From IMG/VR virus record IMGVR_UViG_3300023074_000002, positions 1 through 61,219 of that record: a DNA stretch of 61,219 nt, one strand, 5' to 3'. Origin of the DNA: a virus. Under the pieces are notes generated by a model. It was given only the letters and a program-made list of their open reading frames with translations. It did not search any database and was not told the DNA's origin. The position numbers were made by a program, and so were the translations under genes. Of the stretch, positions 23,944 to 26,349 are shown piece after piece (position 1 is the first letter of the stretch; each line of letters starts with the position of its first letter).

Positions 23944-23975
23944 TTTGGCATTCTCGTATTACGGTATTACCTTTG
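23944..23975 (+). promoter_or_regulatory. Promoter with direct GTATTAC operator repeats
   Basis: TTTG (23944-23947), a 20-base spacer and TACCTTTG (23968-23975). Within and at the end of the spacer lie two direct heptads, GTATTAC at 23956-23962 and 23964-23970, separated by one base. The same heptads, inverted, lie in the promoter after the RHH gene. This placement would let a bound repressor block RNA polymerase. Confidence 0.7.
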
Positions 23976-24337: not shown

Positions 24338-24369
24338 TTTGGTAATACCGTATTACTTGTTTAACTTTG
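24338..24369 (+). promoter_or_regulatory. Promoter with inverted GTATTAC operator
   Basis: TTTG (24338-24341), a 20-base spacer and TAACTTTG (24362-24369). The spacer contains GTAATAC-C-GTATTAC (24342-24356), a perfect 7-bp inverted repeat built from the same heptad as the upstream promoter. It should drive the 66-aa gene and probably the tRNA-like/tmRNA region beyond it. Confidence 0.7.
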
Positions 24370-24604: not shown

Positions 24605-24724
24605 TCCTAAAGATGCAACAAGAGGCCGTCATTAAATAAATAGAGAAGCAGATTGGTAGTAATGTTTCCAAAGACGGTATTGTTCTACCCCAGCGAGGCA
24701 GCGGACAGTCGGAAAGACGATAAA

Positions 24725-24830
24725 GGTTAACGTAGCTCAATTGGTAGAGCGGCTCGGAATGCAGTTCGAATCTGTTTACAGTTTTGGTAACTCTGGGCAA
24801 TGATGTGGATTCGACCTCCACCGTTAATCC
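24725..24830 (+). tRNA. tRNA-like element with enlarged anticodon region
   Basis: Acceptor stem G726-G732 (GTTAACG) pairs with 822-828 (CGTTAAT), one G-U, and G725-C829 can add an eighth pair. T733-A734 take the place of U8-A9. The D arm GCTC-AATTGGTA-GAGC is at 735-750. A perfect T arm GTGGA-TTCGACC-TCCAC is at 805-821. CCA is not encoded. Between D and T arms there are 54 bases instead of about 23-38. They hold a second T-loop-like TTCGAAT and a TTTGGTA loop (possible UGG), but no standard anticodon arm. It is either an interrupted or decayed tRNA, or a tRNA-like domain of a larger RNA. Confidence 0.5.
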
Positions 24831-24845
24831 AAATTCAGTAAAACA

Positions 24846-25080
24846 AGGCAGTAAAAAAATGATAGCGAAAGCTAAAGTAAAAAGTATTGCCTAAAAAGTC
24901 GGACGGACTATAACGACACTTGCCAAAGGATAAATGGAACGTGAGTAACCTACGGACGTAAAAGGTGCTGGATAAGCTAATAGCAGACCAAAAGTAAAAC
25001 GATACATGCCGCTTTGATTAGTGTTGGCTGCGTTATTAAAGGGCGTATTGTTGCGCCTCACAAAATTAAAGTACACTATT
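24846..25080 (+). ncRNA. Gene-free stretch with small hairpins between tRNA-like element and tmRNA
   Basis: About 235 bases without a credible gene. An 8-pair stem (24846-24853 / 24885-24892, one G-U) encloses a TAGC-GAAA-GCTA hairpin with a GNRA loop. Further short stems are GTCG/CGAC (24898-24917) and a GGGCG/CGCCT hairpin at 25040-25057. It may be the 5' part of the RNA precursor or a separate RNA. Confidence 0.35.
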
Positions 25081-25100
25081 ACAACAACAGGCGAAAGCCT

Positions 25101-25173
25101 TTAAGAATATGAAAGTTGTTTGACGATTATTTGTGCCTTTGTTCGGACGCGGGTTCGATGCCCGCCGCCTCCA
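25101..25173 (+). ncRNA. tmRNA acceptor piece (mature 5' end approximate)
   Basis: This piece carries the 3' strands of P2 (25110-25116, 25126-25131, 25137-25141), the conserved TTCGGACGCGGGTTCGA region, the T arm and the 3' acceptor strand. A GGC-GAAA-GCC hairpin just upstream (25089-25100) probably marks the processing site. The same GCCTTT-type sequence begins the next RNA units. The exact 5' end cannot be read from sequence. Confidence 0.7.
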
Positions 25174-25226
25174 CAATGTAGCCTATGGTTGCAGTATTGC
25201 CGCCTCCCTTGAGTAAGGAGGCATAC
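25174..25226 (+). other. tmRNA intervening segment
   Basis: 53 bases join the two tmRNA pieces and should be removed. It contains the hairpin GCCTCC (25202-25207) / GGAGGC (25217-25222). It also repeats GCCGCCTCC (25199-25207), a copy of the acceptor 3' strand region (25164-25172). In the uncut precursor the copy could pair with the GGGGGCG strand in place of the true partner. Confidence 0.65.
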
Positions 25227-25350
25227 GGGGGCGAATGGTTTTGACGGCAAAGTGTAGGGTAATAATAGACTTTCAGAAAGCCATAAACGGCAACTCAATA
25301 CAATTTCAACCAGCCGTTGCTTTTAAAGCAGCCGCTTAGTTGACGAAACT
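25227..25350 (+). ncRNA. tmRNA coding piece with tag reading frame
   Basis: Starts GGGGGCG, then the GGTTTTGACGG region and the P2 5' strands (248-252, 261-266, 269-275 of 25 kb). A tag frame follows. The best reading starts at GGC 25289 and gives GNSIQFQPAVAFKAAA, ending at TAG 25337-25339. The resume codon could be a few codons earlier, since the frame is open back through A-I-N. The Ala-Ala-Ala end fits the small hydrophobic C-terminus read by ClpXP-type proteases. AACGGC/GCCGTT can pair within the tag region. Confidence 0.75.
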
Positions 25351-25351
25351 T

Positions 25352-25378
25352 GCCCCCTGCGACAATGGGGGCTTTTTT
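25352..25378 (+). terminator. Rho-independent terminator after the tmRNA coding piece
   Basis: GCCCCC (25352-25357), a nine-base loop, GGGGGC (25367-25372) and six T. It closes the tmRNA transcript. Confidence 0.88.
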
Positions 25379-25399
25379 ATTATCAAAATTAAGGCGAAA

Positions 25400-25572
25400 G
25401 CCTTTTAAAATAAATAACAGTTGTAACTACATTATCCCTTGTGCTGTATCTGAACGGCTGGGTTAGGCAAAGTAAAGATGATTTCTGCGTTACAACTGCG
25501 TGTCGTGTGATACTTGGTCAGCTAATCTTTATATCAGGGTTGGGTACGTTTCCAGAAACGCCTTTTAAAATA
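25400..25572 (+). repeat. 13-base direct repeat flanking an RNA unit
   Basis: GCCTTTTAAAATA occurs at 25400-25412 and 25560-25572. A related GCCTTTAAGAATA lies at 25097-25109 in front of the tmRNA acceptor piece. Two of the three copies follow a GGC-GAAA-GCC hairpin and the third a CGTTT-CCAG-AAACG hairpin. They look like shared processing or start signals for the RNA units that follow each. Confidence 0.55.
25418..25531 (+). ncRNA. Structured RNA unit with a predicted pseudoknot
   Basis: Perfect 10-bp stem CAGTTGTAAC (25418-25427) / GTTACAACTG (25489-25498). From within its loop, TAAAGAT (25473-25479) can pair with ATCTTTA (25525-25531) beyond the stem, an H-type pseudoknot. No credible gene on either strand. 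Followed by a CGTTT-CCAG-AAACG hairpin (25547-25560). Confidence 0.5.
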
Positions 25573-25665
25573 GACGGCAGTAACTAAGAGTTAGACCATA
25601 GCGATAATGGCTGCCGTCCAATTTAAACCACAATTATTAGCCATGTAGTTATCGCTGGAGCCTAC
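25573..25665 (+). ncRNA. Structured RNA unit with predicted kissing loops
   Basis: An 8-bp outer stem GACGGCAG (25573-25580) / CTGCCGTC (25611-25618) encloses two hairpins (TAACT/AGTTA and CCAT/ATGG). The loop AGCGATA (25600-25606) of the second is complementary to TATCGCT (25650-25656), which itself lies in the loop of a GTAG/CTAC hairpin (25645-25648 / 25662-25665). These elements are visible and exact; the function is unknown. Confidence 0.55.
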
Positions 25666-25835: not shown

Positions 25836-25866
25836 AAAAGGGGCAGCAATCATGTTGCCTCTTTTT
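25836..25866. terminator. Bidirectional terminator before the early operon
   Basis: AAAAAGGGGCA / TGCCTCTTTTT, eleven pairs with one G-U and a ten-base loop. It has A-rich and T-rich flanks that serve both directions. It separates the RNA region from the genes starting at 25939. Confidence 0.75.
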
Positions 25867-25938
25867 AATGCAGCACATTTTGTCCCAAGCCAAAATTAAA
25901 AATGCAGAGGGTTTTATTCACAATTAAAAATTATTGAA

Positions 25939-26349
25939 ATGTCAAATAAAACTAAGTGGACACATTTTTGGGATATGCACAGCGGAGGCGGCACGAAGGA
26001 GCCACCGTATGAAAACATATACATAGAAGCTCAAGAAGATGAAGCAAAAGTTATTTTTTACAATAGGTTCGGGCACAATCCAGATAGGGTTTCTTGTACA
26101 TGTTGTGGTAACGACTATTCTATAAGCGAAAGCGAAACGATAGAACAAGCAACTGGATTTCACAGGAATTGCGATTGGGGAAAAAAAGAGAAAGGGTACA
26201 TCGAGCAAAAGAAAGAAACAGCCTACGGGGAATACAAAACTGTTCCCGAATACGAGAAAGAGGATAATGTTTTATTCATTCGAGATGCTGAAATACAGCC
26301 AAACGAAAGGATAGGCGAAGTTCCCGAAGAGGGATATGTATGGATGTAA
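25939..26349 (+). CDS. Hypothetical protein with a CxCC-G zinc-like motif
   Basis: 136 residues. A C-T-C-C-G-N-D-Y motif near residue 53 and H-R-N-C-D-W near 77 suggest a small zinc site. Trp-rich start. First gene of the long plus-strand early operon. I see no TAnnTTTG promoter in the 70 bases before it. Confidence 0.6.
   Translation: MSNKTKWTHFWDMHSGGGTKEPPYENIYIEAQEDEAKVIFYNRFGHNPDRVSCTCCGNDYSISESETIEQATGFHRNCDWGKKEKGYIEQKKETAYGEYKTVPEYEKEDNVLFIRDAEIQPNERIGEVPEEGYVWM

Follow-up and report, generated by a model that had tools for sequence, protein, structure and literature searches.

A circularly permuted tmRNA (ssrA) of a Bacteroidota phage, from a widespread phage family and most likely permuted within the Bacteroidota tmRNA lineage

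The window analyzed here is a complete IMG/VR virus record of 61,219 bp. At one locus the 3′ half of a tRNA-like domain lies upstream of the 5′ half, and an earlier note read the two as a permuted tmRNA arisen by independent permutation or by transfer. Is the locus such an RNA, and where does its permutation come from? The Rfam family RF04321 (tmRNA_permuted) matches positions 25125–25339 (+) with 64.5 bits (E 3.6e-10; cut-off 47). It is the only family above its curated cut-off when the whole 61 kb is scanned against all of Rfam. Independently of this match, ARAGORN calls a permuted tmRNA (tmRNA*) at 25083–25430 with the tag GNSIQFQPAVAFKAAA, and both agree with the order first proposed, 3′ half before 5′ half on the same strand. 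A search pattern for the permuted core gave one match in the window and none in 100 shuffles. As a false-positive control, RF04321 was run over 395 Bacteroidota genomes; it returned one match, itself a genuine permuted tmRNA. The window encodes a circularly permuted tmRNA at 25111–25378 (+), and we infer that the RNA is processed into two pieces and functions.

The concern that the halves might be fragments beside a continuous tmRNA elsewhere in the genome did not hold. A search of the record with RF00023 (one-piece tmRNA) gave just 24.5 bits (cut-off 47), at the permuted locus itself, which rules out a separate one-piece gene. The check with Infernal models suggested in the earlier note came out in favor of RF04321: the alpha and beta two-piece models (RF01849 and RF01850) gave no match in the window at the gathering cut-off, and the cyanobacterial model (RF01851, cyano_tmRNA) reached 41.3 bits over 25099–25405, below its cut-off of 70.

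All parts of the gene lie on the plus strand. The acceptor piece carries, close to its 5′ end, the 3′ strands of a three-part P2 helix: P2c (GAAAGTT, 25111–25117), P2b (ATTATT, 25126–25131) and P2a (CTTTGTT, 25137–25143). The T arm (25149–25165; five of five stem pairs, loop TTCGATG) and the acceptor 3′ half CGCCTCC (25166–25172; U70 at 25170) were placed by the RF04321 alignment and a check of the pairs. The discriminator A73 (25173) is followed by CAA, so that the mature 3′ end reads ...CUCC-A-CAA in the sequence and CCA is not encoded. The intervening segment of 53 nt (25174–25226), predicted to be removed, contains by sequence and fold a hairpin, GCCTCC/GGAGGC (25202–25207/25217–25222), that copies the acceptor 3′ sequence. 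The acceptor 5′ half GGGGGCG (25227–25233; G3 at 25229), placed in the same way as the 3′ half, is followed at 25234–25245 by a 3-nt spacer, AAT, and GGTTTTGAC (25237–25245), a Bacteroidia-type signature by sequence comparison. The 5′ strands of P2a (GGCAAAG, 25246–25252), P2b (AATAAT, 25261–25266) and P2c (GACTTTC, 25268–25274) come next; all P2 strands were assigned from the fold and from compensatory variation in relatives. The tag frame called by ARAGORN (25289–25339) opens with the resume codon GGC, encodes the 16 residues of GNSIQFQPAVAFKAAA, and ends with a TAG stop. An intrinsic terminator, GCCCCC...GGGGGC TTTTTT (25352–25378), is recognized from sequence and fold.

Acceptor strands GGGGGCG and CGCCTCC pair at seven of seven positions with G3-U70, and all 12 tRNA-like pairs form; the perfect acceptor and T arm described earlier were thus re-derived. 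The three-part P2, tag frame and terminator were likewise borne out, by the fold and by ARAGORN, and three details of that description needed correction: CCA is not encoded, the gap between acceptor and GG is 3 nt, and no hairpin or pseudoknot (PK1) stands between P2 and the tag, a part of the model that the covariance alignment skips. The missing PK1 could weaken the function of the window copy.

Upstream, a motif match identifies a Bacteroidota-type promoter, TTTG...TAACTTTG (24338–24369, +), as a candidate start of the non-coding region that includes the tmRNA. Near-mirror copies of GTAATACCGTATTAC, which may serve a single regulator as operator, lie in this promoter and in a second one of the same type at 23944–23975. 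The surroundings hold further RNA-like elements. A tRNA-like cloverleaf at 24722–24834 (+), with 37.3 bits (cut-off 29) in a regional scan and no ARAGORN call, has an acceptor, a D arm and a T arm; a long hairpin without an anticodon loop replaces the anticodon arm. The regional scan also gave a Twister-P1-like ribozyme at 25862–25915 (+), just before an ORF at 25939, with 36.5 bits (E 1.4e-5), below the cut-off of 67; its core GUCCCAAGCC and GCxGAGGG are retained and a P3-like part is missing. The non-coding stretches that flank the tmRNA (24836–25000 and 25405–25625) contain other candidate structured RNAs, namely a hairpin at 24846–24892 (z −5.5) and an element at 25573–25619 closed by GACGGCAG/CTGCCGTC (z −2.4). 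GGCGAAAGCC hairpins are repeated at 25090 and 25393.

The unconstrained minimum-energy fold of 25105–25380 has −92.5 kcal/mol (z −2.8), a value equalled by one of 200 shuffles, and it holds the three-part P2, the T arm, the acceptor stem with G3-U70, and the terminator. When the intervening segment was replaced by a short linker, the core gave −40 (z −2.6).

Whether the two halves belong together was addressed with related phage copies. In 13 such copies all 12 tRNA-like pairs are kept, and six acceptor variants occur, all with seven of seven pairs. Acceptor strands pair at 100% with their own partners and at 78% with swapped ones (28 of 20,000 permutations as good). The corresponding values are 98 and 54% for P2a (0 of 20,000), 98 and 76% for P2b (1 of 20,000), and 97 and 51% for P2c (159 of 20,000), with P2 helices assigned by hand, which favors structure, and with P2b and P2c unassignable in L011 and L126. 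This per-helix test revealed changes on both sides at 3–5 positions per helix. When columns were fixed and nothing was chosen by hand, 50 distinct sequences gave 72% pairing in P2a with own partners against 56% with swapped ones, and the maximum of 300 swaps was 62%. These two tests were used in place of whole-duplex P2 energies, which were noisy against shuffles and swapped partners. Own partners pair far better than swapped ones in the per-helix test, and the two halves therefore evolve as a single structure. Covariation, whose absence from related phages would have counted against the locus, is present, and this compensatory change, as read from the aligned copies, shows purifying selection on the family.

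The same observations bear on whether the window copy is decaying and no longer functions as a tmRNA. Such decay would fit the lack of PK1, the many degenerate-looking RNA-like stretches near the gene, and a changed base in the T loop of cr53_1. However, the 12 tRNA-like pairs, G3-U70, A73, the three P2 helices and the resume region are intact, the tag frame is open and ends in AAA, the terminator is kept, and relatives show compensatory change. We regard decay as very improbable.

The host was judged from several features of the record. Shine-Dalgarno-like motifs occur at 3 of 75 ORF starts, compared with 9% of random positions, so that the background is the higher of the two. TTTG...TAnnTTTG promoters were found upstream by motif match. 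Scarce Shine-Dalgarno sites and promoters of this form are Bacteroidota traits. The terminase is 37% identical to that of Segetibacter aerophilus (Bacteroidota). These three lines indicate that the host of the window phage is a member of the Bacteroidota. As the earlier note had it, no smpB gene is present: an SmpB search found none in the window record or in six related records, and did find SmpB in the control, Bacteroides ihuae. A phage-encoded SmpB is ruled out for the record, and the tmRNA presumably uses that of the host. Sampled Bacteroidota genomes have a one-piece tmRNA in 60 of 61 cases.

The following working is proposed for the RNA. A single transcript would fold in cis and enclose the 53-nt intervening segment in a structure of acceptor stem, T arm and P2; this structure is supported by the fold and by covariation, and we infer transcription as one precursor. 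Host RNase P would cleave before G1 (25227), and host tRNase Z or exonucleases would trim back to A73 (25173), to which the host would add CCA. Loss of the intervening segment would leave two pieces held together by P2, one with the acceptor (about 25105–25173, with CCA added) and one with the coding part (25227 to about 25378). G3-U70 would direct charging by host AlaRS, after which SmpB and EF-Tu of the host would carry the RNA to ribosomes that have stalled on broken mRNA. Translation would resume at GGC and append GNSIQFQPAVAFKAAA, whose AAA end would mark the product for host proteases. The likely benefit is that ribosomes are kept free late in infection, during mRNA degradation.

The RNA might instead act as a decoy that binds host SmpB or enters ribosomes and so blocks host trans-translation. 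Such a role is proposed for the tmRNA of mycobacteriophage DS6A, which is reduced to the tRNA-like part; a DS6A-like molecule inhibits tmRNA (PMC4131195, PMC11915505), and a phage without SmpB must compete for that of its host. A decoy would have no need for the full tag frame of conserved type that is kept throughout the family, and we consider this role improbable, if less so than decay. Ribosome rescue with tagging is the working we prefer.

How far does the permuted form extend? A DNA pattern search of IMG/VR yielded two related permuted tmRNAs (L011 and L009), the latter on a phage fragment that also encodes a BT4734-like protein. A second DNA pattern led to a permuted tmRNA in a 69-kb crAss-like contig (L010/L012). 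Copies from crAss-like phages are L012, L030–L033, L118–L120 and L124–L126. Within the Crassvirales, RF04321 scores are 60.3 bits for cr50_1, 46.3 for cr125_1, 41.3 for cr52_1 and 40.3 for cr60_1; cr114_1, cr115_1 and cr10_1 are further carriers, and part of the crAss-like relatives scanned with RF04321 gave no match. Several GenBank crAss-like records bear a feature named 'transfer-messenger RNA, SsrA', and the features shown are silent on permutation. In one set of crAss-like stretches (L030, L031, L032, L033 and L034) the permuted tmRNA is near RAGATH-7-assoc, RAGATH-9, RAGATH-20 and RAGATH-22 RNAs. In another (L117, L118 and L119) the tmRNA is a few genes upstream of a gene for a 'ribosomal protein-like protein', and in cr125_1 also upstream of an RNA polymerase sigma factor gene.

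The sole RF04321 match among the 395 Bacteroidota genomes (L140) lies in a prophage-like region with an integrase and phage-type replication genes, in a genome that also has its own one-piece tmRNA (tag GEDNYALAA). The pattern TTTTGACGG, run over bacterial genome contigs, had given no prophage copy; L140 came from the later family search. ARAGORN's tag GRGQPKSNPLFLIE for L009/L011 was judged wrong; the frame GKVIQMFAQPVRLAA agrees with the tag of L140.

A pattern that required the 3-nt spacer and (A/T)TTTGAC matched 46 IMG/VR stretches; since the signature is built into the pattern, they are excluded as evidence for it. Acceptors with seven of seven pairs occur in 41 of them, 31 are called permuted by ARAGORN, and 42 encode no CCA. 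Most of their contigs, too, lack Shine-Dalgarno sites. Their tags follow a common type, G-[KN]-x-[IV]-x-[FML] ... AA, to which the window tag and related tags such as GNSNQFMFAPVKAAA and GKLIAFGRPAVKAAA belong. Intervening segments range across relatives from about 15 to 215 nt, and that of cr114_1 contains a complete tRNA-His gene between the tmRNA halves (L118, 1899–1971), which fits release of the pieces by tRNA-processing enzymes. No close relative of the window phage that shares its tmRNA was found: the fragments related to it by terminase are distant, and RF04321 matched neither of the two that were examined (L002 and L003). Phass-1 has a one-piece tmRNA (77.9 bits), and a Cellulophaga phage tmRNA considered as a cultured permuted example was rejected as one-piece. 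The window tmRNA is one member of a widespread two-piece family in Bacteroidota phages, a family whose origin is probably independent.

The origin of the permutation was approached through signature bases. The spacer from acceptor to GG is 3 nt in 13 of 13 phage copies and in the majority of one-piece tmRNAs of Bacteroidia type, and 4–5 nt in six of six other phage permuted tmRNAs and in the consensus of the Rfam permuted and cyanobacterial models. The sixth base of GGNTTN is T in all 13 copies and most Bacteroidia-type one-piece tmRNAs, and C in all six of the others and in those two consensus models. Glycine is the first tag codon in most phage copies and begins Bacteroidia-type host tags (GENNYALAA, GEDNYALAA, GNTQYAMAA); alanine is found in alpha- and beta-type phage copies with clear tags. 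With its 3-nt spacer, GGUUUUGAC and Gly-initial tag, the window tmRNA is of Bacteroidia type. None of the 13 copies encodes CCA, as in one-piece tmRNAs of Bacteroidia and Cellulophaga phages. Since CCA is likewise absent there from the RF01851 consensus, its lack was dropped as an argument against a source in cyanobacteria. The shared spacer, U and Gly tag favor permutation within the Bacteroidota lineage.

In a maximum-likelihood tree of the 52 alignable columns, the phage copies are scattered in several places among Bacteroidia-type one-piece tmRNAs. This tree is nearly uninformative and does not decide the origin. On the same columns, a clade uniting all permuted forms was not rejected by the AU test (p 0.07), and a strict clade of phage and Bacteroidia-type forms was (p 0.04); a single origin within the family is therefore not shown either.

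An already permuted tmRNA might also have been received from cyanobacteria, proteobacteria or their phages, its bases later selected toward the Bacteroidota type for SmpB, AlaRS and EF-Tu. Other phages do carry permuted tmRNAs (PMC9004378), the cyano_tmRNA model gives its sub-threshold score here, the all-permuted clade survives the AU test, and the shared signature could have come about as the RNA adapted to SmpB and AlaRS of the host. Yet the 3-nt spacer, the U in GG(U/A)UUUGAY and the Gly first codon fit Bacteroidia-type one-piece tmRNAs and no permuted lineage, no intermediates were seen, and the one-piece tmRNA of Cellulophaga phages has the same acceptor GGGGGCG and a tag frame readable as starting GNNT. 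We consider transfer unlikely, though the least unlikely of the alternatives. Between the two origins first proposed, spacer, U and Gly tag favor an independent permutation, which the 52-column tree leaves unproven. We are highly confident that the RNA is a circularly permuted tmRNA of a Bacteroidota phage, from a widespread phage family and most likely permuted within the Bacteroidota tmRNA lineage. With less assurance, we lean toward a wider reading. Starting from a one-piece tmRNA of Bacteroidia type, Bacteroidota phages may have invented the two-piece form independently, perhaps repeatedly, besides the alpha, beta and cyanobacterial lineages. They would have maintained it as a phage-specific lineage that has a tag type of its own, dispenses with PK1 in a minimal build, and tolerates even a tRNA gene in the intervening segment; nearly all hosts stay one-piece.

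Sharkady and Williams reportedly described a third permuted tmRNA lineage in 2004. Among 133 distinct phage tmRNA structures, 53 are permuted, mostly marine or aquatic (PMC9004378), and a 2025 tmRNA database lists 79 sequences from phages (PMC11915505). A permuted tmRNA of another type (79.2 bits, very long predicted tag) is found in Tunturi_4 (L029), a phage isolated on Tunturiibacter, where it adjoins an annotated release-factor-like gene. Our literature search found no discussion of permuted tmRNA in Bacteroidota or crAss-like phages, and the two-piece form in viruses of Bacteroidota is apparently undescribed. The novelty claimed earlier stands in part: permutation is unnoted in crAss-like records, but permuted tmRNAs of other phages were known and SsrA features had been annotated. 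If the reading is correct, permutation has a further origin, restricted to phages that infect a phylum in which nearly every host has a one-piece tmRNA. It would offer a natural paired comparison, with a one-piece RNA from the host and a two-piece RNA from the phage sharing one cell and one SmpB. The crAss-like gut phages would join the viruses that supply a ribosome-rescue RNA themselves.

Compared with the alpha, beta and cyanobacterial two-piece tmRNAs (RF04321; RF01849, RF01850, RF01851), the window has the same order of 3′ half, intervening segment and 5′ half, the tRNA-like pairs, P2 across the pieces, a tag frame with stop, and the break after the tag. It differs by a 3-nt rather than 4–5-nt spacer, GGUUUUGAC rather than GGUUUCGAC, a Gly-initial tag and no hairpin or pseudoknot before the tag, and it falls below the cut-off of every lineage-specific two-piece model. 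The methylophage Melnitz and pelagiphages (PMC9004378) likewise have a phage-encoded permuted tmRNA with host SmpB, but of the alphaproteobacterial type. The Cellulophaga phages phi38:1 and Calle_1 have an acceptor identical to that of the window, a 3-nt spacer, GGTTTTGACAG and no CCA, and in our own reading the frame upstream of the ARAGORN tag gives GNNT...; they differ in their standard order, one-piece form and very long tag. The tmRNAs of the crAss-like phages (cr125_1, NC_055900; cr114_1; cr115_1; cr50_1; cr10_1) share with the window the permuted order, the Bacteroidia signature, G-N... tags and the lack of CCA, and differ in tags like GNxxVTDYTRIAA and intervening segments of 15–215 nt. 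The window phage itself is unrelated to them, a homing-type HNH nuclease being the only protein found in common with one such record (G002).
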